64,000 nucleotides of DNA, taken from the NCBI RefSeq assembly GCF_037414475.1, contig NZ_CP147913.1, forward strand, positions 2,418,001 to 2,482,000, in the 5' to 3' direction. Made by a program: the position numbers and the translations under genes. This document shows, one piece after another, positions 3,835 through 55,042 of this stretch. Every line of letters begins with the position of its first letter. Position 1 is the stretch's first letter. The DNA is from Myxococcus stipitatus (GTDB lineage Bacteria; Myxococcota; Myxococcia; Myxococcales; Myxococcaceae). Under the pieces are notes generated by a model. That model searched no databases. It saw only the letters and a program-made list of their open reading frames with translations, and was not told where the DNA came from.

Positions 3835-3907
3835 ACCGGAGTCGTCTAACCAGCAAGGATGGCGGACTCTGACTCCGCAGGTGCAGGTGCAAAGCCTGCC
3901 TCCGGTT
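3835..3907 (+). tRNA. tRNA-Gln (CTG)
   Basis: Acceptor ACCGGAG/CTCCGGT, anticodon stem GCGGA/TCCGC with loop CTCTGAC (anticodon CTG), T arm GCAGG-TGCAAAG-CCTGC. The T loop departs from the usual TTCAANT (TGCAAAG). Confidence 0.85.
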
Positions 3908-3925
3908 CTCGTACACGCAACACAT

Positions 3926-3997
<72 letters not shown>

Positions 3998-4044
3998 CTG
4001 ATTGAACGGGCCTGCAAACTGGCAGTGCCCTTTCGGTTAACACG

Positions 4045-7801: not shown

Positions 7802-8255
7802 GTCAACCCCTCCCAACGCTGCCGGCCGGCAGGCGTCGCGCTCGCGTGATCGCTTTGCCGGCCGTCTCTCTTTCTGCGATCCTGGCTCACGCGATCAAAA
7901 CGCCGCGCCTTTTCAAGATCGTCTCCACCTCCTATTGCCGAGCACGTTCGTTGATAGCCGGGTGAGCCGACTGGATGATGGCCGCCGAAAACCCGAGTCG
8001 GTTCAAGGCCCTACGGCCGCCTGGCGGCGGTGCCCTCCGGGCAGCCTTGAGCCGCCTCGTGCTCCAGACAACCTGCGACCGGCACTTCCACAAGGGGAAT
8101 CGCCCCAAGGTTCGCCCATCATTGGCGGTGACACCTAACTGCGCACAATCGTAATAGACTCAAGTGGGCTCGCGAGCGTCCTGGTGGTGCCCATCAAAGA
8201 GAGTGCACAACAACCACACAGCCACCCACATCGAACCACACCCCATTGCATTCCC
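7802..8255. other. IS21 right-end region and leader of the next module
   Basis: No gene recognised. It holds the right part of the insertion sequence and, at 8165-8181, TGGGCTCGCGAGCGTCC, a 17-base sequence that recurs exactly at 49163-49179 beside another accessory gene pair. Confidence 0.4.
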
Positions 8256-9125: not shown

Positions 9126-9128
9126 TCC

Positions 9129-10898
9129 GTGGCTGACTTTTCTCTTCAACTTCAGGCAGACAATCTGCCTCGCGAATCCCTAGAGACGCTGCTCGTAGAA
9201 GGCGCATGGGCGCCGATACTCAGGCGCTTATCCACAGGAGAAAACATACTTCTGGAAGGATGCCGCGGCGTCGGAAAAACAATGCTAATGCGCGCCGCCG
9301 CATCCCGACTCGCACGTGATGTCAAACAGGGAAGGAGAGTGCTCGGCGTTCACACTACATTCAAGCGATATCTTGCCACCATACCACCACTGGGAACAAC
9401 AAACACACCTGAGCTTGGAAACTTCAAGGCCTGGGTTAACGCCCGCATCCTCAGCGCATTGAAGGAGCAGTTGCGCTTAGTGTTCTCCGATGACCAAAGA
9501 TATCTAAATAGCACCGTACACAAAGTCGACTGGACTAAGGTAATCAGCCTCCTTGAAACTACATACCAAGGAAATCCCGACACGATAAACCACTCAATCC
9601 TGGGCAACGTCGGCCTATCAGAATCGGACTTCAGAAGTCTGCAGGGGTACACCTTTACCGCAGAAATCCTCCAGCAAACACGAAAAACATTCAACCTCGA
9701 CCTACTCGTCTTACTCCTCGACGATGCAGCACATGCCCTTGATACCCGAGCCCAAGGTGAGTTCTTCACACTAATTAAATCTCTCTATGGCGAGGGACTT
9801 GCCTTCAAAATAGCCGTCTATCCCGCCGTCACTAGATATGGACTAGACTTCAGCTATGGCCACGACGCAGTCGTCGTCAGTCTCGGAGAGATTCCGAGAG
9901 TCGGCACAATGGAAAGCTACTTTGACCTCTTGCGTCGACGACTACAGTTGAGCGACGAAGAAGGGGACGCCCGAACTCTAATCGAGCGCATACTGAACTC
10001 ACACCCCGACTGGATTCGGCTACTAGTCTATTGTGCAAACGGAAACCCCCGAGGGCTCCTCAAACTGGTAAGCCAACTACTCACAGAGTTGGGCGGAAAA
10101 AATGCGAACCAAGTTCGATACGAACACGTCAGAAGCGCCATTAACTTCGTCATGGACAGACACCTCGACAACATGGTGCCTGGGGTAGTCAAGGAACTAG
10201 ATCCGAGACTACTGACTGGCGCGGAACTGTTACTGGAGGACTTTCGCAATAGAATTCGAAGCTCTCCCTTGACGAAGTCGGACTCCTTGCCGCGGATGTT
10301 CCTCGCGGTCACCAATTCAATGCAGATTCCCTATCTATGCGCATCTGCAATTCGCCTACACGTCGCCGCAAATGTTCTCACCCCTTACGGCCCAGCAAAA
10401 CTTGGAGCACGTTCGCGTGAGAATGGGACGCTATATCTCTTGCACCCTGGATTCATGTTCCGAGACAACGTCCTGGGCGGAGCAATAACGGCAGAGCGCT
10501 GGCTCCAGCATTTCGACGGCATGACAACCAGGGGGCACGCCGAAATAATAAAGTCTGCTCCCATTTGGGAAGAAGTGCGCGCAGAAGCGAGTCAGGAGCC
10601 AAGTGCGCGATGCGTAAATGGCCATCCTATGATGGAGCCAACAGGTCTTTGTGACCATTGCGGCAACAGAGCAATTCCACGCGGCCCTGCAGCGATTCTC
10701 CTCGACAAAGACGTGGCAGTGCTAGATCTCACCGACTTCATCAAACAACGACTTCGCGATCATGGATACACCACTGTTCGGAAAGTCTTTGAGGCTACCG
10801 ATACTGAGCTTGACAACATACCATATATCGGAGAGCGGCGGCTAGCGGAAGTGCGCTTTGCCGTTGATGCCGCCGTTGACGAGTTCTTCGCCGGCTAG
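9129..10898 (+). CDS. AAA ATPase with zinc ribbon and HhH tail
   Basis: 589 residues. Walker A GCRGVGKT (44-51) and Walker B LLVLLLDDAAH (about 197-207) place it near ORC/Cdc6-like or STAND-type AAA ATPases. A winged-helix-like region follows (about 330-450), then a zinc ribbon (CVNGHPM ... CDHCG, near 495-515), and finally a helix-hairpin-helix segment resembling the RNA polymerase alpha C-terminal domain (YTTVRKVFEATDTELDNI, IPYIGERRLAEV). The parts suggest an ATP-driven nucleic-acid sensor or remodeller. Low GC, pairing with an unknown helical protein and location between an IS element and a toxin cassette fit a defence module; no substrate is shown. Confidence 0.75.
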   Translation: MADFSLQLQADNLPRESLETLLVEGAWAPILRRLSTGENILLEGCRGVGKTMLMRAAASRLARDVKQGRRVLGVHTTFKRYLATIPPLGTTNTPELGNFKAWVNARILSALKEQLRLVFSDDQRYLNSTVHKVDWTKVISLLETTYQGNPDTINHSILGNVGLSESDFRSLQGYTFTAEILQQTRKTFNLDLLVLLLDDAAHALDTRAQGEFFTLIKSLYGEGLAFKIAVYPAVTRYGLDFSYGHDAVVVSLGEIPRVGTMESYFDLLRRRLQLSDEEGDARTLIERILNSHPDWIRLLVYCANGNPRGLLKLVSQLLTELGGKNANQVRYEHVRSAINFVMDRHLDNMVPGVVKELDPRLLTGAELLLEDFRNRIRSSPLTKSDSLPRMFLAVTNSMQIPYLCASAIRLHVAANVLTPYGPAKLGARSRENGTLYLLHPGFMFRDNVLGGAITAERWLQHFDGMTTRGHAEIIKSAPIWEEVRAEASQEPSARCVNGHPMMEPTGLCDHCGNRAIPRGPAAILLDKDVAVLDLTDFIKQRLRDHGYTTVRKVFEATDTELDNIPYIGERRLAEVRFAVDAAVDEFFAG

Positions 10899-19807: not shown

Positions 19808-19998
19808 GACGCCTCCCACCTGTGCAATGCGGACTGCACCTTGCCGCATGCGGCTTCTCCCTCCCGGCAGCGCCACCACGCTACCAAAACCTGGAAGGAC
19901 ATGCCTCTCCTTCAGACAGGGAGACTACCTACTGGATTGCAAACTCGACGAATAACCTCTTACATTGGAGAGACACCCCCTCGCGCTTCGGGACTCCC

Positions 19999-20364
19999 AT
20001 GCCCGCCCAACTTCCAGATACCCCCCAGGACGAGCCGTTGGCCAACCTCGCCATCACCATCGGCACCCACGCCCGGGCAGCACGACTGCGCATGTTCCTC
20101 ACGCAAGCCGACGTCGCCCAGAAAGTGGGCCTCGTCCCAGCTGTCTATAGCCGCCTGGAGCGAGGGCAGATGCTGCCCAGCGTCCGCACACTCCACCGCC
20201 TCGCCACCGTCCTCTGCACCTCGACGGACGCCCTCATGGGCCACTGCGTCCGTCCCGAGCCACCTCCCGACTCGCCCTCCGTGAGGCTCCTGGTGCAGCA
20301 GGTGCGCCGACTGGATGCGCGCCGGGTAAGGGCCGTTCTGCAGTTGCTGCAGTCCATGCGGTGA
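19999..20364 (+). CDS. XRE-family HTH regulator (copy 1)
   Basis: 121 residues from the ATG at 19999. The HTH (TQADVAQKVGLVPAVYSRLERGQMLPSVRTL) is Cro/CI-like and nearly identical in its recognition region to the regulator encoded just downstream. A short helical tail (LLVQQVRRLDARRVRAVLQL) may dimerise. It is divergent from the kinase gene. Probably a DNA-binding repressor; target unknown. Confidence 0.75.
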   Translation: MPAQLPDTPQDEPLANLAITIGTHARAARLRMFLTQADVAQKVGLVPAVYSRLERGQMLPSVRTLHRLATVLCTSTDALMGHCVRPEPPPDSPSVRLLVQQVRRLDARRVRAVLQLLQSMR

Positions 20365-26377: not shown

Positions 26378-29300
26378 CTATCCGCTTGCGTCTTCCGCTG
26401 CGTAGTCGCCGTTGCGCGCACGCCAGTCATGGGCGTGCGGGAAGTCCTCCGCCGAGACGAGGCGCGTGCGAGACAAGTCCAGCACCACGGCGCGGCGACG
26501 GTTCATCCGCCCGTCGAAGCAGACGCGCTCGTTCAGGGAGACGACGTAGCCGCCCTCGCGGTGGTTCTCCTGCAGCAGGCGTCGCAGCGCCTTCGTGTCC
26601 ACGACCTCGCCCTCGTAGTCGATGCGCTTGCAGTGGGCACGGAAGGCGTCATACGCAGTCTCCAGGTGCAGACAGAGTCGCTCGCCCTCGAAGGCGTAAT
26701 GCACCCGGTGCCGCAGCTCTCCCTGGACGGCCATGACGCCCAGCATCTCCAGGAAGACGTCGAGGGCATTCTTCACCCCGGCTTCCGTTTCGAGGATGTC
26801 CTCCAGCACGGCGTCGACGGCCTGGCAGGCCCCCAAGTCGGTGGGCAGCGGGTAGCCGCACTCCCGGGCGAACTCCTCGAAGAGGTGAATGCCCAGCAGC
26901 ATGGCCACCACGTTGTCGACGACGCGAGGAGGCACCTCGCGTCCTTCAAGGAGGACGTCCGCCACGGCCCGGGCCACCTGGAAGTCCTTGTCGAAGTCAC
27001 GCCCGAGGCAGAATTGAATGTAGCGAGGCGCGAACAGGGCCAGGTTGACGCCCTTCAGTTTGCGGAACGCCACCCGGCACTCGCGTCGCTTCAACGTCGC
27101 CTTCTCCGGGTTGACGGTGAGGAGGCGCTCAAGGAGAGCGGCCTCCGTGGGACGCGTCTCCCCGGCCACGCACAGCGGCGCGTGCAGGCGATAGCTCACC
27201 ACCGACAAGTCCGAGCGGCCCCGCTCCTCCGTCTCCCCGCGGTAGAGGCGCCGCATGTAGCGGTGCAGCATCTGCAGTCGGTGCAGCGGCATGTCGTAGG
27301 GCTTGTACTCGTCGGCCACCACCGGCACGGAGCGCGTGGCGGACAGCAGCTTCACGAGGGCGAACTCGGTCTCCGTCACGCTGTACGCGTCCGCGGCGGG
27401 CACGCCGAAGAGGGGCCAGAAGACGTCGGTGCACATGCTCGACTTGCCGCTACCTTGAGTCCCGTGGATGAAGAGGAGCGGGAAGGAGCCCACCTTCTCC
27501 ATGAGGCGCGGCTTCATCGGCGTTGAGAAGAACCACCCCAACATGGGCAGCACCACCTGCGGCGTGTTGAGCTGCGGCAGGGACTCGAAGACGGTGCGCG
27601 CGACGTCGTGGAAGGCGTCCTCGTCCGCGGCCTCGTAGCGGATGCGCGACTCCAGCGAGGTGCCATTCGGCAGGTACGCTACCGGCGACTGGGTGAGGAA
27701 GCCCTCCCGCCCAATGGTGCAGCCAGGCGCCACCCAGACGTGGTGCTCGCCCCGCTTGAAGTCTCCCAGCGTGGTGGTGCCCGGAAGGCGAGGCACCGGC
27801 CGGCGCGCTACCGCGCGCAAGAGTCCCTGCACGTTGTTGTCGCTGCCCGTCCACTGCGTGTGGACGGACGGCAGGTGGTTCAGCAGCTCCTTGCGCGAAA
27901 GGAAGGCACGGCGCGGCAGCCGCGCGCCCTCCAGGCAGGCCCCCTTGTCCGTGCGGACGTCCCCGAGGAATACCTCCCCCTCCTCGGTTTCCACGAGGGC
28001 TCGTGGGGTGAAGGTGAAGGAGGAGATGGCCTTCGCCTCCCCGCGCTGCGTCACCGTGTAGTAGCAGGACGCGTCCTCGTACACCTCGCCGTCAATGGTG
28101 TCGTCGCCGCTACTTCCCTTCTCTCCTCCCTTGGAGTCCGCGCCCTCACCCGCGGCCTGGGTGCGCACGGCTCGGGCCATGGACAGGCGCAGCTTCTGCG
28201 TGGCCTGGCCCGTGCGCACCGCCAACAGGCCCAGGTACTTCTCCTGCGCGGATGGCGGGCGGTGAGCAATGGCCTCCAGGATGGGCTTGAGGCGGTACTC
28301 CACGTCCTGGGCCGGCACCGCGGCCAACGCCTCCACGGCCTTCTCGATGTCGAAGACGACGTCGTACAGCTCGCAGCGCACGTCGGGCTCGCGGTTGACG
28401 CGGCAGTAGCCCATGCCCTGGAGGGAGTGGCAGGGCGGCGCCACGCCACCATCCTCGCGGGCGGTGGCCATCACCTTCTCGTAGGCCTTGGAGATGTACG
28501 CCTTGCCGTCTCGCCCCTTCAGCTTCCCGAGGCCACGCCGGTCGTACTCCAGGACGAGCTCGGTGATTTCGTCGAGGCCGAGTTGCTTGTGCGCGAAGAA
28601 GCGCACCATGTTGAAGATGGCGACGCTCCGGTCCTCCGCCCCCTGCTCCCACAAGCGCTGCACCGGGCCGCACATCTCCACCGGCTGCGCCCAGTCGTAC
28701 TCCCCCGCCTCCGTCCGGCGGGCCTTCACCGTCCCCTGCGGCGCCGAGGCGGCGGGCGCCAACGGCATCGCCACCTGGGCCGGATGCGCCTGGTTCACCA
28801 GCGGCTGCTGCACCGGCGTGCGGAGCAGGCGCTCCAAGAGCCGTGGGTCTTCAGCGCGCTCGAAACCCGCCAGTGCCCGAGCGACTCGGTGTGGACGCTC
28901 AGCAGTGCCTGTCCCCTTCCGGCTGACGGTGCCCACCACCTTGATGACCCGCGCCATGTCGTGGATGGAGTCCACGCGCACGCGCTCAGTCGCGAAACGG
29001 GCGCGGACCTCAGCCTCGAAGGCCTTCAGGCCCGCCTGCACACGCTCATGGCGCTCTCCCTCCAGCGACTGCGGCGGCAAGGCGAACCAGAGCTGCGCCC
29101 CGTTGCCGCTCATCATCAGCCGCGGGCGGACGAGCCCCTGCGTCTCACACCAGGCCCCGGCGGCTTCCGCCACCTGGAGCGTCAACGCGAGTTCGTCCTC
29201 GGTGCTGGCCGTGTCCTTGGGACGCACCGGGTCCAGGTCCACCACCGTGGACGTCGCCACCTCGATGTCCTTGTTGCCTGCCCCCGTCCGCAACGAGCGC

Positions 29301-29563
29301 AGGACGTTGGGGGCCAGCTCGAGCAGGCGCCGGGGGCGAGGCTGGATGCCCACGTACACGTTGCCGCCAGGGTTGGCCTCGACACACGCTTCGATGAAGG
29401 CCTCCTCGTCGTCGAAGAAGCCCAGGCCCACAACGCCCCCACCGCCCGGGCGGATAACGCGGACTTCACTCACCCCGTGCTGGGCATGCGCCAGCCACCT
29501 CCACGTGGCGCGGATGGCGTCGGGGTTGGGAGTGCTTGGAGTGGTGTCAGAAGGTGTCGTCAT
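26378..29563 (-). CDS. AEP-type primase-helicase
   Basis: 1061 residues. The N-terminal part has STVVDLDPVRPKD, SGNGAQLWFALP and DSIHDMARVIKVVGTVSRKG, which fit the three motifs of archaeo-eukaryotic primases found in phages and plasmids. A central segment reads as a PriCT-like zinc/helical region (CHSLQGMGYCRVNREPDVRC). The C-terminal half has Walker A IHGTQGSGKSS and Walker B-like VPVVADEYK, as in DUF927/SF3-like replicative helicases. It likely opens and primes the nearby origin-like region at 34.4 kb. Last gene of the leftward early operon. Confidence 0.8.
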   Translation of the reverse strand: MTTPSDTTPSTPNPDAIRATWRWLAHAQHGVSEVRVIRPGGGGVVGLGFFDDEEAFIEACVEANPGGNVYVGIQPRPRRLLELAPNVLRSLRTGAGNKDIEVATSTVVDLDPVRPKDTASTEDELALTLQVAEAAGAWCETQGLVRPRLMMSGNGAQLWFALPPQSLEGERHERVQAGLKAFEAEVRARFATERVRVDSIHDMARVIKVVGTVSRKGTGTAERPHRVARALAGFERAEDPRLLERLLRTPVQQPLVNQAHPAQVAMPLAPAASAPQGTVKARRTEAGEYDWAQPVEMCGPVQRLWEQGAEDRSVAIFNMVRFFAHKQLGLDEITELVLEYDRRGLGKLKGRDGKAYISKAYEKVMATAREDGGVAPPCHSLQGMGYCRVNREPDVRCELYDVVFDIEKAVEALAAVPAQDVEYRLKPILEAIAHRPPSAQEKYLGLLAVRTGQATQKLRLSMARAVRTQAAGEGADSKGGEKGSSGDDTIDGEVYEDASCYYTVTQRGEAKAISSFTFTPRALVETEEGEVFLGDVRTDKGACLEGARLPRRAFLSRKELLNHLPSVHTQWTGSDNNVQGLLRAVARRPVPRLPGTTTLGDFKRGEHHVWVAPGCTIGREGFLTQSPVAYLPNGTSLESRIRYEAADEDAFHDVARTVFESLPQLNTPQVVLPMLGWFFSTPMKPRLMEKVGSFPLLFIHGTQGSGKSSMCTDVFWPLFGVPAADAYSVTETEFALVKLLSATRSVPVVADEYKPYDMPLHRLQMLHRYMRRLYRGETEERGRSDLSVVSYRLHAPLCVAGETRPTEAALLERLLTVNPEKATLKRRECRVAFRKLKGVNLALFAPRYIQFCLGRDFDKDFQVARAVADVLLEGREVPPRVVDNVVAMLLGIHLFEEFARECGYPLPTDLGACQAVDAVLEDILETEAGVKNALDVFLEMLGVMAVQGELRHRVHYAFEGERLCLHLETAYDAFRAHCKRIDYEGEVVDTKALRRLLQENHREGGYVVSLNERVCFDGRMNRRRAVVLDLSRTRLVSAEDFPHAHDWRARNGDYAAEDASG

Positions 29564-29589: not shown

Positions 29590-31098
29590 TCAGTGCGCGC
29601 TGGCGGCGGCGGACACCCCCAGCACCGTGGCGTACTGCTGGCGGCGCTCCGCGTGGTGGCGCCGGAGCAACGGCACCTGCCCGTCGACGAAGTCGATGAG
29701 GACAGCGCTCTTCTTCTCCGGGTGCGGGCGCATGAGACGTCCAAGGCGCTGGACGGTGCGTCCGCGCGCACGACCGGGGAACGCGAGGAAGACGCGGGAG
29801 AGGCGCGGCAAGTCCAGCCCCTCATCCGCCAGGCTGGTGGCCACAAGCACACGGACACGTCCGTCGCGAGCTTTGTCCAGGAGGGCCTTGCGCTCTTCAC
29901 GAGGCACCTCACTCGTCAACGCGGCGGCCGACAGGCCGGTGGCCGAGAGTCGCTTCGCCAGCAACTCGCAGTGGTCCACCCGGCCCGTGAGGACGAGGCA
30001 CAGGTGGCCCGCCCAGGCCTCGCGAGCCACGGCGCCGAGGACGAGGTCGTTGCGCTCCTTGTCCTCTGCCAGTGCCTCCAGCATGGGCGCGTAGTCCGCG
30101 GCACGTCCGTAGGGGAAGTCGAAGTCCGTCTCCACCGCGCGAACCTCGGGCACCACCAGCACTCCACGCGCGACGAGGTCCGCGTGCTTCACCACCGCCA
30201 GCGGCGGTCCCAGGTACAGGCGCAAGAGTGGGGTCAGCCCGTCCTCGCGCTCGGGCGTCGCCGTCAGGCCCAGGCGGTAGCGGGCAGGGCAGCGGTCCAC
30301 CAGGCGGTGAAAGGCGCTGGCGGCGATGTGGTGGGCCTCGTCGAGGACGAGCAGCCCGAAGCCGCGGAGGAAGGCGTCGAGATTCGCCTCATCCCACCGC
30401 GACAGGGACTGGACGACGGCCACGGTGACGGGTTGCACATCCTCTTCGCCTGCGCCCACGAGGCCCGCCTCCAGGCGCAGGCGCTCGCGCACGTGCTCAC
30501 GCCACTGCTCCGCGAGGTCCAGGGTGTGGACGAGGATGAGCGTCGGCGTGCGGAGGCGAGAGATGGCGCCGACGGCGAGGACACTCTTCCCTGCCCCGCA
30601 TGGGAGCACCGCCGTCCCCTGAGTGGCCTTCGCCAGGCGCTCCACGGCCTCCGCCTGGTAGTCGCGCAGGGGCACCTCCGGTAGCTTCGGCAGCCGCTTC
30701 GTCGGGAACACCCGCGCATCGTCGATGACCAGCGAGAGGCCCGCCTCCTCCGCGGACCGCCGCAGCAGGTGAATGGCCCCGCGCGGCAACACCAGCTCGC
30801 GCGCCACCTGGCGGAAGAAGGTCAGCGTCTGGGGTTCCGCCCCGGGGCGCTTGCGCAGCCGCACCAGCTTCAAGAAGGCGGGGTTGGGGAGGGAGAGTGC
30901 CCGGCAGAGTCCCTCCACCATCTTGGGCGGAACGTCGTGCGTCGCGAAACGCAGCCCGGCGTCCACGCGCACGCGCAGCGTCCGCAGGCCAGTGGCCGTG
31001 CCCGCGCTGCGCGCAGACGGCGCGGCACCCACGCGGGAGTCCTGGGCGCGAGAGACAACACGTCCCCCGTCCCCTCCTTCGGAGAAGTCTTCCAGCAT
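29590..31098 (-). CDS. SF2 DEAH-type helicase
   Basis: 502 residues. Motif I AVLPCGAGKSVLAVGA, Ia ILVHTLDLAEQW, II LLVLDEAHH, III GLTATPER, IV-VI VRVLVATSLADEGLDLP and VQRLGRLMRPH. Domain order is that of XPB/UvsW-like SF2 translocases of phages, which act in replication restart or recombination. An N-terminal extension of about 130 residues may be a DNA-recognition domain. It lies between the SSB-like and primase genes in one operon. Confidence 0.85.
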   Translation of the reverse strand: MLEDFSEGGDGGRVVSRAQDSRVGAAPSARSAGTATGLRTLRVRVDAGLRFATHDVPPKMVEGLCRALSLPNPAFLKLVRLRKRPGAEPQTLTFFRQVARELVLPRGAIHLLRRSAEEAGLSLVIDDARVFPTKRLPKLPEVPLRDYQAEAVERLAKATQGTAVLPCGAGKSVLAVGAISRLRTPTLILVHTLDLAEQWREHVRERLRLEAGLVGAGEEDVQPVTVAVVQSLSRWDEANLDAFLRGFGLLVLDEAHHIAASAFHRLVDRCPARYRLGLTATPEREDGLTPLLRLYLGPPLAVVKHADLVARGVLVVPEVRAVETDFDFPYGRAADYAPMLEALAEDKERNDLVLGAVAREAWAGHLCLVLTGRVDHCELLAKRLSATGLSAAALTSEVPREERKALLDKARDGRVRVLVATSLADEGLDLPRLSRVFLAFPGRARGRTVQRLGRLMRPHPEKKSAVLIDFVDGQVPLLRRHHAERRQQYATVLGVSAAASAH

Positions 31099-31185: not shown

Positions 31186-31920
31186 TCATGGCCCGAAGGG
31201 GTCCACGTCGGCGACGCTCTCCGCGGAGTACTCCATCACCAGGGAGTCGACGAAGGCGCGCGCCAGCTCTCCCTTCGACGCAGGGATGTCCCGGATGCGC
31301 TGGACGCCGAACCTCTCGAGGAAGCGGTCCACCGCCTCGCGCGGCAGCGCCTTCAGCGCGGTGGCCATGGACTGCGCGAGCCGCACGTCGATGGGCTCGT
31401 TCGACTTCGTGTTGGCCGCGCCCGTGGGCGACGTGCCACTCGCTGCAGACGCGGCCTCGGCCGCATACAGCTTGGACAAGTCGTGCTGCTGCAAGGACTG
31501 GAAGGCCGCCACCTCCTCGGGAGTCAACTGCTTCTCCGGCAGGAGGGAGTACGTCGTCTTGGGGTCCTTCGCCGCGCCGTGGCGTTTGACTTCGAATGCC
31601 CAGGTCTCCAAGCCGTACTTCGCCCGTACCTGGAGCAGGTTGGTGAAGAAGGTGGAGGCCTGCTCCATCACCTTCACCTCGCGAGATGGATAGACGGCGA
31701 CGTTGAGGGCTACGCGGAGCGAAGACTTGTGTCCCTGCGCCTTCAGTTTCTCGTCGTAGGGGATGAACTTGTTGTCGGCGAAAACAACCTCGCGCGGGAA
31801 CGGCTCCCCAAGGAAGACGACGACGGCGGTGTCTCCGTCGTTCGCCAGCTTCAACCAGCTGCCGCCTGCCTGTTCGTGCTGCTTGGCCATCGCGGCCGCC
31901 TGCTCCCACATGTTGGCCAT
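31186..31920 (-). CDS. Putative single-stranded DNA-binding protein
   Basis: 244 residues. A beta-rich N-terminal domain (WLKLANDGDTAVVVFLGEP, REVVFADNKFIPYDEK, FEVKRHG) reads as an OB fold like gp32 or gp2.5 type phage proteins. The C terminus is acidic and ends DVDPFGP, comparable to the DDIPF tip by which SSBs recruit helicases and polymerases. Position beside helicase and primase genes supports the call. No direct sequence signature proves it. Confidence 0.55.
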   Translation of the reverse strand: MANMWEQAAAMAKQHEQAGGSWLKLANDGDTAVVVFLGEPFPREVVFADNKFIPYDEKLKAQGHKSSLRVALNVAVYPSREVKVMEQASTFFTNLLQVRAKYGLETWAFEVKRHGAAKDPKTTYSLLPEKQLTPEEVAAFQSLQQHDLSKLYAAEAASAASGTSPTGAANTKSNEPIDVRLAQSMATALKALPREAVDRFLERFGVQRIRDIPASKGELARAFVDSLVMEYSAESVADVDPFGP

Positions 31921-32425: not shown

Positions 32426-33274
32426 TCATCCGCCCCCTCCTGGTGCCCTCTCGGTTGTTTCAAAATCCACAAACTCTAAAAAGCACCCCCAGCCGCCGAT
32501 TTGGGACAAGAAATCTTTTTCGGGGATTTTTTTCTTCATTTTCCGCAGGCGAACCAGGGCCCGCTGGACGCGCTTACGCGCCGCCGCAGGTGCAAGCCCA
32601 AAGCTCGCGCCGGCCACGGCGTAGTCCTCTTCGCGCAGAAGGACGGACACCACCAAGTCGGTGTCCTCGCCCATCAATGGGAGGAGCAGCACCCGCAGCT
32701 CTTCCACCTCCGTGTCGAAGGAGCGGGCTCGAGATAAGGCGGAGACGGGCCACGGCCCCGACGGCGCCCCGCCGTCTGCTTCCGTCAACCTCCCAAGGCG
32801 CACGCGTTGGCGTTGCGCCTCGAGCTCCTTGTGCCAGTCCTTGAGAACGTCGCGCTCCGTACCACGCACGAGTGTCGCGGCCACGCGCTGGACGCCGGAC
32901 AATTCGACGCGCGCCACCAGGCCCATGAAGGACGCGGCAATCGAGGACACCACCTCCACGGGTGCGCTCTCCATTCGCCTCAGACATCGGCGGTACACGC
33001 TGTCCAACCCTGGCCAGAGGCCCAGCCACAACAACGCCACAAAGGCGTTAGTCGCGGCGCCCATCTGCACCAGCATGACGAGGCCCGCGAGTAAGCCATC
33101 CTTGAGGTGAGACTCGCCTTCGCGCGCAGTGAGGAATGCAACGAGGTCCTCCGGCTGCTCGAAGTCGGAGAGTGCCTCCCAGTTTCGCCGCAAGACGCGA
33201 TAGGCACGCCGCGTCTCGGCCGCCCGCAGGGCCATGCCAAGCTCTCGATTGAGCGCACTCCAGTTACGACTCAC
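32426..33274 (-). CDS. Sigma-70-like regulator (region-4 HTH), leftward
   Basis: 282 residues from a GTG at 33274; an ATG at 33235 is an alternative. The C-terminal part (SVLLREEDYAVAGASFGLA, AAARKRVQRALVRLRKM) has the shape of sigma region 4 with its -35-binding HTH; the middle (VYRRCLRRMESAPVEVVSSI) resembles region 2. No strong family match is visible. The end of the gene, coding KKKIPEKDFLSQIGGWG, is repeated inverted at 34700-34769. Together with a second sigma-like gene at 37717 it may direct phage promoters. Confidence 0.55.
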   Translation of the reverse strand: MSRNWSALNRELGMALRAAETRRAYRVLRRNWEALSDFEQPEDLVAFLTAREGESHLKDGLLAGLVMLVQMGAATNAFVALLWLGLWPGLDSVYRRCLRRMESAPVEVVSSIAASFMGLVARVELSGVQRVAATLVRGTERDVLKDWHKELEAQRQRVRLGRLTEADGGAPSGPWPVSALSRARSFDTEVEELRVLLLPLMGEDTDLVVSVLLREEDYAVAGASFGLAPAAARKRVQRALVRLRKMKKKIPEKDFLSQIGGWGCFLEFVDFETTERAPGGGG

Positions 33275-34369
33275 TATACATGCCGCCCCGGTCCTGCGCT
33301 CGGCGCGCGGGAAGTGCCGGGTGAAAGGGGAGACCAGGCCGAGCCCCGTTGAGGGAATGATGCCAGCGCCTCCGAGGCAGCCCCGTCTTCTGAGGGCACC
33401 TCGTGGCAGCGACACGTCTGTCGAAGGAAGGGGCAAACGCTCCACGCGCCCCAAGCCCCTCGCTATGGTGTCGGGTCTATCCCAATCCGACGGACTGCAC
33501 GGCAATGAGCGCGCGGAGTGCCCAGGTGAGCCGGGGCGCAGCCCTCACGGAGCAGCTCTCTCCGGATGGCACACCAGCTCCTGGGCACCACCAGGACTGA
33601 GCCAATCACAACAAACCAGCACATGACGATGAACCAGCAATTCACGCAGCCCCCGCACGACCTAGAACAACACCGGGCTGAAACGCTCACCCGCAATACG
33701 CACGGCACTATGGAACCGGGGCGTGACCAGGGCGCGACGAAACAGAGAAAAAAATACACACCCAGCACTCCACGCCGAAATCCCTTCCACTCTTCGTGAC
33801 GACTCTTGTTATTCGCGTCTGGAACCCACCAGATTCCCAACACCCAGACAGCCATGCATTCATTGCGAACATCGCAATGCTCTCTCTTCCCAACGAGAAC
33901 TTCCGGGGTGGCTGATTTGGCGTGGGGACATGGCCGCGTGGCTTGCGACTTTCATGCCCGTACATCGCCACCTGGCGTTGGAGGTCGCCCGGAGGCACGA
34001 GCCACTCACGCACTCCAGCCCTGGCTTCGCGCGGACCCGAGCCTGTCCACGGGCTCGGACATTCGCAATGTGAAACATCCTTGTCTCTCTGTGTCACCGC
34101 CGCCCTCGGTTGGCTCAAACCTGCCCTCAGCCCAGTCCTGCGCATCTCAGAAAACCGGGAAGTGACGGCCCTGGCAGGGCGCAGATGACGCGGAAGGTGT
34201 CAGCCTCCGCCCAGGGGCCGCGCCCGCTCCTCTTCGCGCGACTGGGGCCGTTCTTGGCCGTTCTGCGGCCATTCACAGGCCAGGGCTGGGGCCCTACTTG
34301 TGCAGCTCCGTGCCCATCCGCTTTGCACGCATTCACAAACAGCCACTCTCATTTCACATCACGAGTGGG

Positions 34370-34638
34370 TGTGGACAGCGTGGACAGGTGTGGACAGCAC
34401 TCTGTCCACACTTATCTCCATGATTTTCCTAACGAAAACCTCACTGTGGACAGTGTGGACAGCTTTTATGGGGAGAGACACGCATGCGCGTGCGCGCACT
34501 TGCACATGACGCATGCGCATGACGTAGGGGTACCCTTCAAAAGCTGTCCACACTGTCCACACCCACTTATCCCCTCGCAATCACTCGCGAAAACTGTGGA
34601 CAGAGACCTGTCCACAAGCTGTCCCGGAGCTGTCCACA
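34370..34638. repeat. Iteron-like array of TGTGGACAG
   Basis: Exact copies of TGTGGACAG at 34370, 34389, 34445, 34454 and 34595, and of the complement CTGTCCACA at 34402, 34544, 34553, 34608 and 34630; near copies at 34379 and 34619. Bases 34445-34467 and 34539-34561 form a perfect 23-bp inverted repeat made of two tandem copies plus CTTTT. The repeats share TGTGGA with DnaA boxes but have a fixed GACAG end, so a phage initiator is as likely as DnaA. Confidence 0.7.
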
Positions 34639-34645
34639 GGCGAGG

Positions 34646-34678
34646 GATGTCCCCGATTTGGCGCCGGATGCCTTTGTG
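34646..34678 (+). promoter_or_regulatory. Bipartite phage motif, copy upstream of rightward early operon
   Basis: GATGTCCCCGATTT, ten bases, GCCTTTGT. It lies 135 bases before the gene at 34812 and directly after the repeat array. Same spacing as the copies at 50737 and 55223. Confidence 0.55.
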
Positions 34679-34811
34679 CTTCTTTCCCTCGGCGCTTCGC
34701 TCGCCGGGGAAAATCCAAAATAAAATCGGGCGAAATGATTTCTTGTCCCAAATCGAAGGGATGGGGTGAGTTTAGGATGTATCGGCAAACACGCGCCGCC
34801 GACATCCGCGC

Positions 34812-35417
34812 ATGGCCCTTACACACCTGCTCCAGCCCACTCCCGCCCCACAACGCCCGCCTGGCGTGACGTGCGAAGCCTATGTCCGCGGCAACGGCAA
34901 GCACTGCCTGCACTACCGGCCTGGCGGCGGCTGCACCCTACCCGGCGTTGGCGGCACCTGCACCGAGTGGCTGAAGGTGAATCGACAGGCCCGGCCTCAT
35001 CGTGATGTGGCCGCGCCGCATGTCCCCGTTCCTCCGGCGAAGTCCTCCTCGGCTGCTGTGGATCTCTTCGGCAATCCCCTGCCTGAGTCAGACTCGAAGA
35101 AGCCCGCCCCGGCCTCCATTCCCTCGCCACCAGCTCCGTCTCCCGATGTGAAGGCACCGGAAGCTGATGCCTCCCTCTCCGCCCTCCGCGGCCTCACCGA
35201 CGAGGACATCGCCAGCTTCAAGGCACTCGGCACCGAAGTCTGCTTCGCCTCCGAAGCCTACGGCCAGGTGTGGCTCGTCCCCGCTTACACAGGCCAGTCC
35301 CGAGAGGAGCTCACCCCCGAGCATGCCGCCACGCTGCTGCGCGTCCTGTCTGCCTTCCCCGGCTCACGCGTCATGTCCTTCGAGAAGCGGCCGGCCTCCA
35401 CGGAGGCCTCGCCATGA
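34812..35417 (+). CDS. Unknown early protein
   Basis: 201 residues. The N terminus has a Cys cluster (VTCEAYVRGNGKHCLHY, GGCTLPGVGGTCTEW) that may bind zinc, then a Pro/Ser-rich linker including AVDLFGNPLPES, then an alpha/beta domain (LTDEDIASFKALGTEVC, YGQVWLVPAYTGQSREEL). First gene of the rightward early operon. It ends by ATGA overlap with the next gene. Confidence 0.65.
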   Translation: MALTHLLQPTPAPQRPPGVTCEAYVRGNGKHCLHYRPGGGCTLPGVGGTCTEWLKVNRQARPHRDVAAPHVPVPPAKSSSAAVDLFGNPLPESDSKKPAPASIPSPPAPSPDVKAPEADASLSALRGLTDEDIASFKALGTEVCFASEAYGQVWLVPAYTGQSREELTPEHAATLLRVLSAFPGSRVMSFEKRPASTEASP

Positions 35418-35554
35418 GCACGCCCCCCACCTGTGAAACAAACACACGGGGCACCTCCGCCGCCCTAGCTCGACTTGATGTGTCTCTCGAAAAGAGCGTG
35501 ATGACTGTCTCGCAACGCGCCACCGCATCGGCCCCAAGGAGGCCCACGCCATGA
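35414..35554 (+). CDS. 46-residue coupled protein
   Basis: ATG at 35414 with ACGGAGG seven bases upstream. It overlaps the previous stop by ATGA and the next start by ATGA (35551). The double coupling and ribosome binding site argue that this is a true gene although only 46 residues long. Sequence is Thr/Arg-rich ([18 protein letters not shown]) with no known motif. Confidence 0.6.
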
Positions 35555-36726
35555 GCGGACTGCGAAACACGCACCTGTCTTACAGCCGGCTCAGCCGCTA
35601 CGAGTCCTGCCCCCTCTCCTACCAACTCCACTACCTCGACAAGCACTCCGCCGAGCCCGGCGTGCCGTTGAGCTTCGGCAAGGCACTGCACGCCGTGCTC
35701 GAGCGACTCATCCAGGACGTCCTCGACACCGAGTACGCAGGCCCGCTCTCCGAGGAGCGCGTCCTCCAGCTCTACCGTGAGGCGTGGACGGCCGAGGGAC
35801 TCTCTGGCCTGGACCTCTTCCACCAGGGACTCGGCATCCTCCAGGACTTCGTCCGCCAGCAGGGCCGCGTGGACTCCCGCGACATCCTCGCCGTCGAGAA
35901 GGAGTTCCGCCTGCCGGTGGGGCCCTTCACTGTCCTGGGCTTCATCGACCGCGTCGACTGGGTGGACGACGAGACAATCCACGTCATTGACTACAAGTCC
36001 AACTACCAGCTCTTCACCCGCGAGGAGCTGGACACCAGCCTCCAGCTCAGCCTCTACGCCCTCGCCGCGCGCCGCATGTGGCCCTGGGCCAAGAAGGTGC
36101 GCCTGTCCATGTGGATGCTCCGCCACGGCGTGCTGCAGGAGACGACGCGCACCGAGGAGCAGTTGGACGCCGCCCTCGCCTACGTCGAGACGCTGGGCCA
36201 GCAGATGGAGACGGCGGAGTCCTTCCCCGCCCGCCTCAACCCCAACTGCGTCCACTGCGACCACCGCCGCACCTGCCCTGCCTATGCCCAGGCGCTGGAG
36301 GGACAGCGTCGCGTTCTCTGCGAGGACACCTCCGACTTGGAGTCCGTCGCCCGCGAGCGCCAGGAGGTCGCCCACCTCGCGAAGATTCTCAACGCGCGCA
36401 AGGCGGAGCTGGAGGGCGTCCTCCGGGCCCACCTGGCCGAGAAGGATGAGCTCGTCCTCGCCGGCACGCGCTACCGCATGTTCAACACCACCAGCCTCGA
36501 CTACCCGCTGGAGCCCACCATCGCGGTGCTGGCCCGCGCCACGGGCCTCTCTCGTGAGGCGTTGGTGGAACGCCTCGGCAGCGTCGACAAGAAGGCCCTC
36601 GACGCGCTGCTGAAGGACGAGGGCAAACGCCTGGGCACCGCGCGCGTGGCGCTGCTGAAGGCCGAGCTGGACTCCCTCGCCGCCAAACACCACTCGCCCC
36701 GCTTCTGGGCCAAGGAGGTTGCATAG
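35551..36726 (+). CDS. RecB/Cas4-like PD-(D/E)XK nuclease
   Basis: 391 residues; AAGGAGG eight bases before the ATG. The start [20 protein letters not shown] has the first Cys of an Fe-S cluster. [13 protein letters not shown] and IHVIDYKSN give the catalytic D...DxK core, and [13 protein letters not shown] supplies the remaining cluster Cys residues. This is the Cas4/AddB/RecB nuclease arrangement. In phages it serves as recombination exonuclease or end-processing enzyme. It precedes DnaQ-like and resolvase-like genes in a coupled operon. Confidence 0.85.
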
Positions 36727-37381
36727 TGCTGCTCGCTCACCCTGATTCCGACACCACTCCTGTCTCCGGTCTCCACGAGCCGCTTTTCCCCGGCCTCCCG
36801 CCGCATCTGCGGACGCTCGCCTTCATCGACCTGGAGACCACGGGCCTGGACGCCTCTCGGCACGAGGTGCTGGAGGTGGCCGTCCTCCGTGTCGACGCCC
36901 GCAGCCTCACGGTGCTGGCGGAGTACGAGGCGCGCGTGCAGCCCACCCGGCTCGCCGACGCTCACCCCGAGGCCCTGGCTGTGTGCGGCTACTCCGACGA
37001 GGAGTGGCGTGACGCGCTGCCTCTGCACGAAGTCTTGGCCACCGTGACGCCGCTCTTGGCGGGCACCCTCGTGGCCGGCCACAACACCAACTTCGACTGG
37101 GGCTTCCTCGTCGAGGGCTACCGCCGCACCGAGCTGGCCCTGCCCCGCGTTGACTACCACCGCCTCGACACCGCGAGCCTCGCGTGGCCGCTGCTCGCCA
37201 CAGGTGAGGTGGAGTCCCTCTCCCTCAACGCCCTAACCAAGCGCTTCGGCCTCCACCGGCCCTCGCCCCACCGTGCCATGGCGGACGCCCGCTGTGCGCT
37301 GGAGGTGGCCCGCTGCCTCGCGGTGCGCATGGCCCGGGGCGGCCACATGGAGCGGCTGCTGGAGGACTCAGGAGGTGTCTC

Positions 37382-37385
<4 letters not shown>
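36726..37385 (+). CDS. DnaQ-like 3'-5' exonuclease
   Basis: 219 residues from a GTG overlapping the previous TAG by one base; AAGGAGG seven bases upstream. Exo [12 protein letters not shown] (DxE), Exo [13 protein letters not shown], Exo [14 protein letters not shown] (HxxxD) define a DEDDh exonuclease. In a phage operon next to a RecB-like nuclease it probably trims 3' ends or proofreads. Confidence 0.88.
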
Positions 37386-37720: not shown

Positions 37721-38526
37721 GTGACTTCTTCGGCCACCTCCTCGGCCTGCTGCGTGCGGAGGCGCTCTCGCCTCGGCACCAGGCCGTCTTCGCCGCTGCG
37801 CGCACGCAGCGGCCCGCCTTCGCGCGCCATGCCACGCTCGAATCGGTGCTGGCCGCCATGGCGGACGCACGCGAGGAGACGTACCCGGCCAGGGAAGCCC
37901 TCACCCGGGCCCTGGTGGCTGAAATGCAGGCCTCCCCCAGCCCCGCGTGGACGGCGGCCCTCGCCTCCGCCTACGCCCCCATGTTGCGCCGCCTGCGCCG
38001 CCGCCTCCTCGGCAACGCGGTGCCCCGAGAGGACCTCGACCAGCTCGTCCTCGCCACCTTCCTCTCCGTCGCGCGCGGATTCCCTCTCTCTCGCTGGGGT
38101 GACTGGACTGCCGCCCGCCTGCGCCAGCAGACGGCGCGCGAGGTGTTCCGAGTCCTCCGGAAGGAGCGGGCGGAGCAGCACGACACGTACACGCAGGCGC
38201 AGCTCGCCGAGTGGCTGCCCGACGCTCGGCCCGCCACATCGGTGGAGAGTCCCAGGCGGCCCAGCCTCCGCCGCAGCTTCGTGAAGCGCGACGCCGTGCT
38301 GGTACACCTTGCCCGCGCCACGCTGCCTCGCAGTGACGTCGAGGTCCTCATGGCCACCGTCGTCCGACGCGAGAAGCTGCGCACCTACGTCAGCCGCCTC
38401 GTCGAAGGTGACGCCGTCGAGACCGAGAGGACGTACCAGCGCCTGAAGCGCCAGCGCACGCGGTTGATGCAGCGCCTGCGCACCCAGGCCTTGGACGTTG
38501 CAGCGCAGCCCTCCGGAGGCTGTTGA
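37717..38526 (+). CDS. Sigma-70-like regulator, rightward
   Basis: 269 residues from the GTG at 37717 inside the preceding stop. The centre ([38 protein letters not shown]) is like sigma region 2, and the end ([39 protein letters not shown]) like region 4. It resembles an ECF-type factor but is divergent. It may transcribe the phage late operons that carry the TGTCCCC...GCCTTTG motif. Confidence 0.6.
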
Positions 38527-38534
38527 GGGAAGGC

Positions 38535-39494
38535 ATGGCCCAGAAGAAGCCCCTCAAGAAGCTGGGGCGCCCCACCAAGGCCGAAGGTCCTCGGCTGCCT
38601 CATGACGAGGTGGACCGGCTCCTAGTGGAAGGCGAAGAGGTACCCAGCACGCGGGGCCGCGTGAAGAGACGATTCCCCTCCCTGCGCGAGCTGGCTGAGC
38701 GCTTCGGTGTCGCCCACAGCGCCGTCGCTCGGTACGCCCAGCAACACGACTGCCTCGGCCGCCGCAAGCGCCTCCTCGCCGGGCAACCTCCGCCCGAGGT
38801 GGAGGCATCTCCCGACGAGGCGCCACCGACTCCACCGCCCGAGAAGCGCAAGACGGGCCGCCCCCGCAAGTCCGCGGAGCCCGCACTCCCGCGCCAGGAG
38901 CTGGACCGCGCCCTCGTCTTCGGCGACGTGAAGACGCTGCCCGACGGCTCCACCATGACGAGCTACGCCTCGTACCGCGAGCTGGCCGAGCGCTTCGGCG
39001 TCGCGACTTCCCTCGTCGCCAACTACGCGAAGGAGCACAACTGCCTGCGCCGCCGCGAGGAGGCGAAAGTCCGCATCGCCACCAAGGCGGACCAGAAGCT
39101 CATCGAGCTGCGCGCCAACGCCATCGCCGTTTCCAAGGACGACGCGCTGAAGATGATTGACGGCTACCTCCTCGGCTTCGAGGAGGCGCTGGCCGAGGGT
39201 CGCGTGCGCGTCGACAACCCCACCGACTTCAACACCATGGTGCGCCTCAAGGAGTTCGTCATGGGCGGCGCCGACTCCCGCCAGGAGCTGCACGCCACCT
39301 TCTCTTTGGAGGGCCTCCAAGCCCGGCACGCCCAGGCCCTGCGCGCAGCGCAGGAGTCCACTCCGGCCGAGCGCGGCGAGGTGGACGCCGTTCTGGAGAG
39401 TAACGATGATGTCCAGAACGTCATAGCGACAACGGATACGTTGCGACCTACCGACTCGGAACTCAACACACAATCAACTAGCCACATCGAGTAG
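38535..39494 (+). CDS. Tandem-HTH DNA-binding protein, possible small terminase
   Basis: 319 residues from the ATG at 38535 (GAGGGAAGG just upstream). Two homologous modules of about 75 residues repeat: [20 protein letters not shown] ... [18 protein letters not shown] and [20 protein letters not shown] ... [18 protein letters not shown]. Each ends in a HTH and NCL/DCL segment. The C-terminal helical domain ([19 protein letters not shown]) could oligomerise. Small terminases are HTH proteins with helical oligomerisation domains, and it is the last gene before the cargo zone preceding the large terminase; this role is inferred. Confidence 0.55.
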
Positions 39495-47020: not shown

Positions 47021-48226
47021 TCACAAGCGCCGAAGAGGAGTCACCGATCCGCCTCCCTGTGGAGGGTCCTTCGGCCCAGGGACATCTTCAGCAGTCGTAG
47101 CGGTCGGAACCAACCTAAGCACCTGTGCGCTCTCCCCCGTAAGAACTCCACGCGGAATGCCCGTCAAGGTCACGATGTCTCGGTTGGCAAAGGGCAAATG
47201 CGCGCACACCTCCTCAAAGCCTCGCTCTGCCACCCACAGCTCAATCGCACGGCGAATCAAGCGAGGCTGTTCCGGCGGAAGCTGTTCATCCAGCGGTTCG
47301 CTCCGTTTGTAGCCTCTCCGCGCATAATTGATGTGAAGGCGAGTCATCGCGTCATCGCTCAAGAACCCCAAGCGCTGCGCCTGCATCATCATCATCCGCA
47401 CAGAGACCTTCCAGCGCATCTTCAACTCAAAGAAGCCATCCAGAGTAAACGACTTCACCTCGTGCCGAAACGCCTCCGGAGGGAACAACAAGGCCGCAGC
47501 AAACCGATGAGCCTGATTCTCGAAGGCACGCCACTCGCCCGGCTTATTGAGACGTGACTGGTCAACTCCACGATGAAGCACAAGGTGACCGAGCTCATGT
47601 GCAACGTCGAAGCGTGAACGCGGCCCCGACTCTTTGTTAGCGGCCAGCAGACCTACAGCATGGTCCGGGAAAAACTGCGACAACCCATCCAAAGCATCTG
47701 CATCAACTTGGGCCCGGGCGAGCAGAACGCCATGCTTCTCCAGCAAGGCAACCATGTTGCTAATTGGCCCTTGCCCCAACCCCCAAAAGCGTCGCGTCTC
47801 GACCGCAAACCGCTCAATGTCACCATCCGAAAGAGCCAGAGGGTCTCTCGGGATGGCAAAGTCTGGCAAGTTCATGGGCGGCAGGCCGACAAACTGGCCG
47901 ACCACGGTTCCGAGCCGGTGTAGCCAGCTTAGCTTTGCCTCTGCGGCATTACAGGCGGCGACACTTGTCGAGCGCTGCGCACGGTAGAAAACCGCACTTC
48001 CAGGTTGCTCCTCCACGGGCATGAGAAAGTAGCGTTCAGGAACATCGAGCGCGTCGCACAACCGTCGCAACACATCGGCTCGAGGACTAGAAGCATCCTT
48101 CTCATAACCGTAGATAGCAGGCACACTGATCTCAACACGCTCGGCGAGCGCGCGCACGGGGATGCCGCGCTCAAGGCGCGCCTCCACCAAGCGTGAGCCA
48201 ATGAAGCCTGGAGTGCCTAGAATCAT
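47021..48226 (-). CDS. XRE regulator fused to ImmA/IrrE metalloprotease
   Basis: 401 residues. The N-terminal HTH (VRALAERVEISVPAIYGYEK, PRADVLRRLCDALDV) is XRE-type. Around residue 215 RFDVAHELGHLVLHRG gives the HExxH zinc site of the ImmA/IrrE (DUF955) peptidase, followed by NQAHRFAAALLFP. In ICEBs1 ImmA cleaves the ImmR repressor; single-chain XRE-ImmA proteins occur in toxin-antitoxin-like and phage cargo loci. Coupled (ATGA) to the gene upstream. It runs against the terminase, so it is an insertion into the late region. Confidence 0.8.
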   Translation of the reverse strand: MILGTPGFIGSRLVEARLERGIPVRALAERVEISVPAIYGYEKDASSPRADVLRRLCDALDVPERYFLMPVEEQPGSAVFYRAQRSTSVAACNAAEAKLSWLHRLGTVVGQFVGLPPMNLPDFAIPRDPLALSDGDIERFAVETRRFWGLGQGPISNMVALLEKHGVLLARAQVDADALDGLSQFFPDHAVGLLAANKESGPRSRFDVAHELGHLVLHRGVDQSRLNKPGEWRAFENQAHRFAAALLFPPEAFRHEVKSFTLDGFFELKMRWKVSVRMMMMQAQRLGFLSDDAMTRLHINYARRGYKRSEPLDEQLPPEQPRLIRRAIELWVAERGFEEVCAHLPFANRDIVTLTGIPRGVLTGESAQVLRLVPTATTAEDVPGPKDPPQGGGSVTPLRRL

Positions 48227-54201: not shown

Positions 54202-54304
54202 AGCGCGATGAAGTCTCCAGCATTTGAAGTGAGCATGCCGGCGCATGGGGTATTCTTCGGTGCAGCTCGCCCTATTTTGGGGTGCTCTAACAGGGAGGTA
54301 GTTG

Positions 54305-55042
54305 GTGGAGACGCAGGTGACAGAAATTGCTCCAAGACTCTACCGGCTCTCCACATACATCAGCGGAGCCAACCTCCTTTACAACCAGTTCCTCATCGAC
54401 GCTGAGGAGCCGGCGCTGTTCCACCTTGGGCCCAGGGCATTGTTCCCCCTGGTGTCGGCCGCAGTGCGCAAGATTCTCCCGCTGGAGCGACTCCGGTGGC
54501 TCACCTTTGGGCATGTAGAGGCAGACGAGTGTGGGGCGATGAATTCCTGGCTGGCCGCCGCGCCTCATTCACAGGTCGCGCATGGCGCAATGGGTTGTCT
54601 CGTTTCAGTGAACGACCTCGCCGATAGGCCACCACGCCCGCTGCAGGACGGCGAAGTCATGGACCTGGGCGGGATGCGGCTGCGGAGAGTCGAGACACCT
54701 CACGTACCGCATGGCTGGGATGCCGGACTGTTTCTAGAGGAAGCTACCGGAACACTGTTGTGTGGAGACCTGTTCACAGCGATGGGCGACGCGCCAGCCC
54801 TGACAACACAGGACATCGTCGGGCCCGCACTCTCTACTGAGGATGGCGGCCACGCGACATGTCTGACGCCTGCGACTGGCCCCACCATGCGTGCTCTGGC
54901 TGCCCTGCGACCACGAACGCTCGGCCTCATGCACGGCCCCTCCTATACTGGAGACTGCGCACGGGCGCTGCAGGACCTCGCTGCGGCCTATGACGAGAGG
55001 CTCGACGCCGACCTCTCCCGCCTGCGCGGGACGCGGCTCTGA
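54305..55042 (+). CDS. Flavodiiron-like metallo-beta-lactamase-fold protein
   Basis: 245 residues from a GTG with AGGGAGG six to seven bases upstream. TFGHVEADECGAMN (HxExD), TPHVPHGWDAGLF (His), TLLCGDLF (Asp) and LGLMHGPSY (His) match the diiron site of flavodiiron proteins and ODP-type proteins, which bind or reduce oxygen or NO. The flavodoxin domain is absent, as in ODP sensors. It is not a phage morphogenesis protein and seems to be a cargo gene placed between head genes. Confidence 0.7.
   Translation: METQVTEIAPRLYRLSTYISGANLLYNQFLIDAEEPALFHLGPRALFPLVSAAVRKILPLERLRWLTFGHVEADECGAMNSWLAAAPHSQVAHGAMGCLVSVNDLADRPPRPLQDGEVMDLGGMRLRRVETPHVPHGWDAGLFLEEATGTLLCGDLFTAMGDAPALTTQDIVGPALSTEDGGHATCLTPATGPTMRALAALRPRTLGLMHGPSYTGDCARALQDLAAAYDERLDADLSRLRGTRL

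Follow-up and report, generated by a model that had tools for sequence, protein, structure and literature searches.

A cluster of ten short repeats in the genome of Myxococcus stipitatus is very probably the place where a prophage starts copying its DNA. The cluster lies at positions 34370-34638 of the 64-kb stretch that was analysed (the window; positions 2418001-2482000 of a complete 10.3-Mb genome). We regard it as highly likely that this interval is the replication origin of the prophage and that it is read by the C-terminus of the prophage's own PrimPol-helicase. The original prediction of an iteron array and likely replication origin was supported by conservation of the array at one gene junction, by co-variation of its repeats with the C-terminal third of the primase-helicase, and by a site order in its left half that is shared with the origin of phage P4.

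Structure of the repeat array

The repeat TGTGGACAG has ten exact matches on both strands of the window. As predicted, all of them fall inside one interval of 269 bp, and none was found elsewhere in the window. The chance expectation for the window is 0.56 copies, and ten copies were reached in none of 100 dinucleotide shuffles. Same-strand pairs of TGTGGACAG lying 0-28 bp apart were found in the array only when the whole 10.3-Mb genome was scanned (a count of pairs), and an 18-bp double unit with two mismatches allowed gave one stray match in that genome, at 4.37 Mb. The array is thus a repeat cluster with regular spacing and far above chance, as is characteristic of iteron-type origins. When the single-mismatch copy at 34379 is counted and two-mismatch matches are omitted, the sites run + + + - (AT-richer gap) + + (spacer) - - + - -, with the following parts:

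34370-34410: left site group; iterons at 34370 (+), 34379 (+, CGTGGACAG, one mismatch), 34389 (+) and 34402 (-)
34411-34444: AT-richer gap between site groups, 62% AT; candidate melting region
34445-34467, + strand: inner tandem iteron pair (34445, 34454) plus CTTTT; left arm of the 23-bp inverted repeat
34468-34538: spacer; ACGTAGGGGT conserved in five T1 loci (see below), GCATGCGC duplication not conserved
34539-34561, - strand: inner tandem iteron pair on the opposite strand; right arm of the inverted repeat
34595-34638: right site group; 34595 (+), 34608 (-) and 34630 (-); order resembles P4 crr

The proposed arrangement as tandem pairs in opposite orientation therefore describes the inner part of the array and not the outer site groups (order + + + - ... 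+ - -). Positions 34445-34467 and 34539-34561 do form the perfect 23-nt inverted repeat that had been noticed. The duplication of GCATGCGC between its arms is likewise real; it is not kept in the four T1 relatives (see below) and is probably incidental. The octamer ACTTATCT marks the left edge of the gap (34410-34417) and is also present in three of five T1 loci, in nine of 11 aligned T2 loci and in the gap of P4. In the window, the 30-mer with the lowest GC content in the intergenic region begins near 34710, beyond the array; this is also true of two of the four T1 relatives. GC skew, which had been suggested as a check, showed neither a sign change nor an inflection at the array and gave the origin no support.

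Genomic setting

Around the array, ~1.3 kb (33506-34811) are free of genes; replication-type genes run leftward from there and nuclease genes rightward, which bears out the description of a gene-free centre between divergent gene runs. A helicase-primase had been placed nearby: the gene of a 1061-aa primase-helicase is located at 26378-29563, and the array lies 4.8 kb 5' of it. The leftward genes are, in order, those for a 359-aa protein, a 114-aa protein, an SSB-like protein, an SF2 helicase, the 1061-aa primase-helicase, a DUF2924 protein and a large serine recombinase. Rightward follow genes for a 201-aa protein, a PD-(D/E)XK nuclease, a DnaQ-type exonuclease and two proteins with full-length matches to function-less PHROGs; farther right are a tyrosine recombinase and then terminase-like, portal, protease and capsid matches, the last three at 50.8-58.2 kb. 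Because of this gene content the element is taken to be a prophage. The genes and domains relevant here are:

26378-29563, - strand: 1061-aa proposed initiator; predicted AEP-type PrimPol fold (N-terminal), AAA+ helicase and winged helix (C-terminal)
26477-26767, - strand: predicted winged-helix domain (residues ~933-1029), proposed iteron reader
29590-31098, - strand: SF2 helicase (ResIII/Helicase_C; best NCBIfam match XPB, below cut-off)
31186-31920, - strand: single-strand DNA binding protein (PHROGs match)
32426-33505, - strand: 359-aa protein, no function assigned, first leftward gene
34812-35417, + strand: 201-aa protein, no function assigned, first rightward gene
35551-36726, + strand: PD-(D/E)XK nuclease (PF12705; Cas4/AddB-like matches below cut-off)
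36726-37385, + strand: DnaQ-type 3'-5' exonuclease (further profile matches below cut-offs)

Several other features of the window were recorded. Within 34640-34811, a block to the right of the array (~34710-34800) is conserved across T1 and T2 elements and AT-rich in part; it is probably a leader or promoter of the rightward genes. An ORF at 55415-56809 matches both D12 N6-adenine methyltransferase and the XkdF-type phage serine protease domain (Peptidase_S78_2), and a stretch inside the head gene module (54302-55042) matches the ODP family beta lactamase. The two genes at 8184-10898 have a low G+C content (~0.53); one shows a sub-threshold DUF5677 match and the other encodes an ATPase matching AAA_22 and ORC-CDC6-like. 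They adjoin an IS21-type pair at 5815-7801 and are possibly an acquired defence or mobile module. A cluster of six tRNA genes (3391-3998) lies to the left of the IS21 pair.

Repeat types in related elements

Matches to the 1061-aa protein were found in 25 of 96 genomes of the family. The 5' side of 29 copies of its gene was fetched, giving 30 elements with the window; from primase to nuclease the genes follow much the same order in them. A search for the array in related prophages, as had been proposed, revealed the TGTGGACAG array (type T1) at the same divergent junction in four of the 29 relatives. In 13 others the same junction carries TGGTGGCAG instead (T2), with the order of sites nearly unchanged. 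A third repeat, GGTGGACAG (T3), forms an array in three relatives and a weaker form in three more.

Layouts were drawn for five T1 loci (with the window), 11 of the 13 T2 loci and three of the six T3 loci. T1 and T2 have a common layout: three direct sites 9-11 bp apart and one inverted site are followed by a gap of ~30-40 bp and a direct pair, and after another 80-110 bp come an inverted pair and then more sites. The order of the left group is shared by most T1 and T2 relatives shown and by the P4 origin; part of this group is lost in L043. At 16 of 19 loci the gap contains the 30-mer that is lowest in GC within the whole intergenic region (11/11 T2, 3/3 T3 and 2/5 T1, the window not among the latter). 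Two sets of iterons flanking an AT-rich region, as in PICIs and SaPIs, were thus found in this family, the gap of the window itself being the 62% AT stretch listed above.

Six T3 loci (L056, L057, L058, L059, L060 and L063, the last three weak) and six untyped loci (L061, L064, L065, L066, L067 and L068) were omitted from the T1/T2 tests. Among the untyped loci, scanning showed no array in L061 (whose protein is 63% identical), L065, L067 or the 364 bases of L066; L064 and L068 were covered by a TGTGGACAG count only, and the contig of L064 was rescanned as L097 among distant relatives. L065 and L067 are apparently the contigs of L092 and L099, in which a degenerate GGTGGACAG array was seen (inverted pair, AT-rich gap, direct site or pair). 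A loose 8-mer scan of distant relatives from MAGs gave mostly GC-rich noise. L117 has GGTGTGCAC-like repeats and L088 has three scattered copies of TGTGGACAG without a cluster; the repeats of L107 are all in one orientation and probably unrelated. In L113 the array is T2 and the C-terminus, 78% identical to that of the window, is T2-like, which fits the pairing described below from outside the 18 elements compared there. L112, L114 and L115 duplicate L043, L047 and L041 and were not counted. Pairs of elements of mixed type and of equal type within one genome both occur, in numbers too small to judge whether a difference of type allows two elements to live side by side.

In one element (L044, genome G036) the array and the full primase are kept while the helicase and PD-(D/E)XK genes are nearly gone (best-segment coverage 0.06 each). 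Among phage records, the array used as DNA query had no match, and no record was similar to the protein at 38523-39494; similarity was limited to a weak one to the primase-helicase in 13 records, none covering 80%.

Co-variation of repeat type with the C-terminus of the proposed initiator

Sequences of 18 of the 30 elements (five T1 including the window, and 13 T2), some of them close relatives of each other, were compared by repeat type. Identity of the primase-helicase did not separate the types over residues 1-550, did so slightly over residues 551-700, and clearly from about residue 700 onward. Separation was strongest for residues 1001-1050, where identity was 0.93 within T1, 0.86 within T2 and 0.52 between the types. 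Positions without any residue common to T1 and T2 numbered zero in residues 1-500 and 17 in residues 1001-1050; T1 and T2 initiators differ at ~50 positions. No separation by type was seen for the helicase, SSB, the 114-, 359- and 201-aa proteins, the nuclease, the exonuclease, the 333- and 323-aa proteins or the tyrosine recombinase; these comparisons of neighbour proteins comprised 13-18 rows, some partial.

Quick trees, read without branch supports, gave the same picture. Since L062 and L069 do not have the C-terminus, the C-terminal trees contain 16 rows (five T1, 11 T2); in these, a single change of repeat type was counted for residues 700-930, and likewise for residues 931-1061. Four changes were counted for residues 1-550. 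Nine neighbour proteins were treed, the tyrosine recombinase being left out: three changes were found for the helicase and for the nuclease (four T1 rows each), four for the 323-aa protein (four T1 rows) and five for each of the six others (five T1 rows), the maximum possible number being that of the T1 rows, i.e. four or five. As the genes between primase and array do not sort by type, plain linkage is not the cause. Repeat type changes in step with one end of the enzyme and therefore points to this enzyme as the reader of the repeats. Matching of protein and site, with putative binding of one to the other, is the simple explanation of the co-variation, which among the proteins compared is confined to the C-terminus of the initiator and amounts to strong, if indirect, evidence that the repeats are specific to it.

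Phage genomes carry operator arrays between divergent gene runs, and the position of the present array between such runs would also suit a repressor or activator that controls the leftward and rightward operons from the repeats. This explanation is unlikely, as neither of the two HTH candidates compared sorts with repeat type (a third HTH protein, 19822-20364, was left out). The HTH/M78 protein (47021-48226) has counterparts of 90-95% identity in three T2-bearing genomes (G063, G062 and G038, in the last beside its T2 element) and no match in nine of 16 genomes, T1 (G055, G066, G036) and T2 (G075, G076, G078, G017, G023) alike, while the protein at 38523-39494 shows four type changes with four T1 rows. 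What sorts with type is the C-terminus of the primase-helicase. The array may nevertheless double as an operator.

Opening of a phage origin by host DnaA is very unlikely. TTGTCCACA, the actinobacterial type, and TTATCCACA are consensus sequences of DnaA boxes. CTGTCCACA is one base from the former and two from the latter, and the junction contains ten sites with one mismatch to the former; a search of the junction for TTATCCACA boxes with at most one mismatch found none. If a single host DnaA opened these replicons, they would be expected to carry the same boxes, but T2 elements have TGGTGGCAG in their place, and elements of both types occur together in two genomes (G038 and G055). No box cluster that would allow comparison with the host's own box was found in the 19 kb around host dnaA. 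A partition (centromere) site or a DNA packaging site is extremely unlikely: partition sites can be repeat arrays, but no ParA or ParB was recognised among 40 window proteins scanned with Pfam, the terminase-like gene is ~12 kb from the array, and neither function accounts for the co-variation with the helicase C-terminus.

Predicted structure of the proposed initiator and a possible mechanism

Sequence comparison alone revealed little about the 1061-aa protein. It has no NCBIfam match, Pfam gave only a sub-threshold match to AAA_16, and its search against PDB sequence profiles returned nothing significant. D109, D111, G706-K707, D751 and E752 are invariant in 11 relatives. An AlphaFold2 model of residues 620-1061 (33 rows) had a mean pLDDT of 77.6 and a pTM of 0.72. 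In this model residues ~933-1029 run helix-strand-strand-helix-helix-strand-strand (H-E-E-H-H-E-E), which we read as a winged helix. When the 442-residue C-terminal model was compared by VIA-align, SCCmec Cch (5dgk) was matched with Z 20.0 (rmsd 6.8, 356 residues aligned, model residues 8-424) and SaPIbov1 Rep (8tch) with Z 17.0 (rmsd 7.6, 331 aligned, model 8-425). Both alignments extend through the winged helix; MCM proteins reached Z values of at most 14.7, mostly over the motor only. The modelled domains thus appear to match those of Cch and SaPI Rep, the C-terminal domain included, whereas their exact arrangement does not. For the N-terminal model (residues 1-420; pLDDT 77.8, pTM 0.58), the best Foldseek matches were LigD polymerase domains (LigD Pol 2r9l, 7e-5) and RepB' (3h20, 4e-4), which suggests an AEP/PrimPol fold.

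According to the scheme that we propose, the 1061-residue protein would bind the TGTGGACAG repeats via its winged helix. With a repeat spacing of 9-10 bp, adjacent subunits would come to lie on nearly the same face of the double helix, and the site groups could nucleate protein rings on both sides of the AT-richer gap 34411-34444. This gap would then melt, the helicase of the protein would load itself, and the PrimPol domain would make the first primers, so that replication would start at the array. The SSB-like protein and the second helicase encoded in the same leftward gene run are candidate participants.

Genome-wide distribution and a Citreicoccus contig

The T1 double repeat (one mismatch allowed) was found in six and the T2 unit (two mismatches allowed) in 11 of the 96 family genomes. 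All 14 genomes with T1 or T2 repeats are among the 25 that have the protein, and none is among the 71 without it (hypergeometric 1.9e-10, a value that ignores the relatedness of the genomes). G023, which is T2, was missed by the T2 pattern. A control pattern read backwards gave one match in the 96 genomes (G092) in one scan and none in the scan with the T2 pattern.

The Citreicoccus genome (G014) contains two C-terminal fragments of the initiator; in each of them 15 of the 17 diagnostic residues are T1-like and none is T2-like. Two contigs with the rightward genes also have T1 repeats at their ends. On contig 76 of this genome (L238:1824-14334), a near-complete T1 array is followed 1.3 kb on by a near-complete T2 array. 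The contig also carries a serine recombinase, DUF2924, pieces of rightward genes and a tyrosine recombinase, as well as an ORF with a sub-threshold RHS-repeat match. In its 29.5 kb, no primase, helicase, SSB, nuclease, exonuclease, terminase-like, portal or capsid match was found at E values up to 1e-4. It is a counter-case to the pairing: contig 76 has a T2 array, yet the initiator fragments found in G014 are all T1-like. The element on contig 76 is either a remnant or a satellite with two origins.

A tentative and rather doubtful extension is that origin types arise in this prophage family when the C-terminal part of the initiator and the entire array are exchanged at once, that elements sharing a genome replicate independently of each other, and that primase-less elements like that on contig 76 are two-origin satellites of helpers of either type. 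If this were true, a satellite that keeps two origin types could be replicated by helpers of either type.

Comparison with known systems

The P4 repeats were taken from the annotation of the P4 record itself. The 8-bp type 1 repeats of P4 read GGTGAACA on one strand and are followed by G in nine of 16 copies and in five of the six origin copies; GGTGAACA(G) compares with TGTGGACAG or GGTGGACAG here, at a tandem spacing of 9-11 bp. The P4 origin has the order + + + - (AT-rich) + + with gaps of 10, 11, 21, 44 and 10, and the left half of the window array shows the same order with gaps of 9, 10, 13, 43 and 9. When arrays were randomised, 0.11-0.15% of them contained a matching run of six sites with 8 bp of tolerance and 0.4-1.3% with 15 bp; both the comparison with P4 and the tolerance had been chosen after the array was seen. 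P4 crr runs - - + + -, and the right half of the window array resembles it (- - + ... -). In the P4 record ori and crr are ~4.5 kb apart, whereas here both halves lie within 270 bp.

The initiators are less alike. A profile comparison with P4 alpha aligned 25 columns around the Walker A motif alone (probability 9.5; the alpha alignment had seven rows, 84-86% identical to P4). The primase of the archaeal plasmid pRN1 is a PrimPol. P4 alpha unites primase, helicase and winged helix in one protein, its primase being described in PMC4234260 as Toprim-type, in contrast to the AEP PrimPol fold predicted here. According to the same text, the replication protein of pRN1 joins a primase, an SF3 helicase and a C-terminal winged helix; its origin is described as a stem-loop with no iterons, as opposed to the iteron array here.

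The position and type of the element recall Mx alpha, prophage-like units of ~80 kb which PMC6070905 places at ~2.1-2.25 Mb in Myxococcus xanthus DK1622; the element of the window lies at ~2.44 Mb in a genome of the same family. No origin of a myxobacterial prophage appeared in the titles among the matches listed by a literature search of limited reach, from which absence from print is not claimed.

The closest counterparts are the rep-ori systems of SaPIs and other PICIs (SaPIbov1 Rep, SaPI5 Pri-Rep) and SCCmec Cch/Cch2. As here, these have an AAA+ initiator with a C-terminal DNA-binding domain (putative in the present protein), and SaPIs and PICIs have sets of short iterons on either side of an AT-rich stretch. 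The C-terminal domain of SaPI Rep recognises iterons, as stated in PMC7581432 (citing Ubeda 2007), and PMC6092414 describes an AT-rich region flanked by two iteron sets in PICIs. PrimPol is fused to the initiator here, as in some PICIs. In contrast, the initiator has no significant sequence match to its solved SaPI/SCC relatives. SaPIs and PICIs are satellites, whereas the present element has portal, capsid and protease genes, and the SaPI origin lies just 3' of rep, whereas the array here occupies a divergent junction on the 5' side of the initiator gene, 4.8 kb from it. Neither an origin directly 3' of rep nor a satellite without capsid genes was thus found, and because of its portal and capsid genes and the other position of its origin the element is not a PICI.

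A SaPI-like arrangement with a SaPI-Rep-like initiator is thus seen here in a prophage with head genes of its own. With its naturally paired types of repeat and winged helix, the family opens the DNA code of this class of initiators to testing. The family is also a source of replicon modules for myxobacteria, in which autonomously replicating plasmids are scarce according to PMC3235114. Compared with the systems above, the machine is of a known kind; new are the type of element, the position of the origin and the natural series of specificities.
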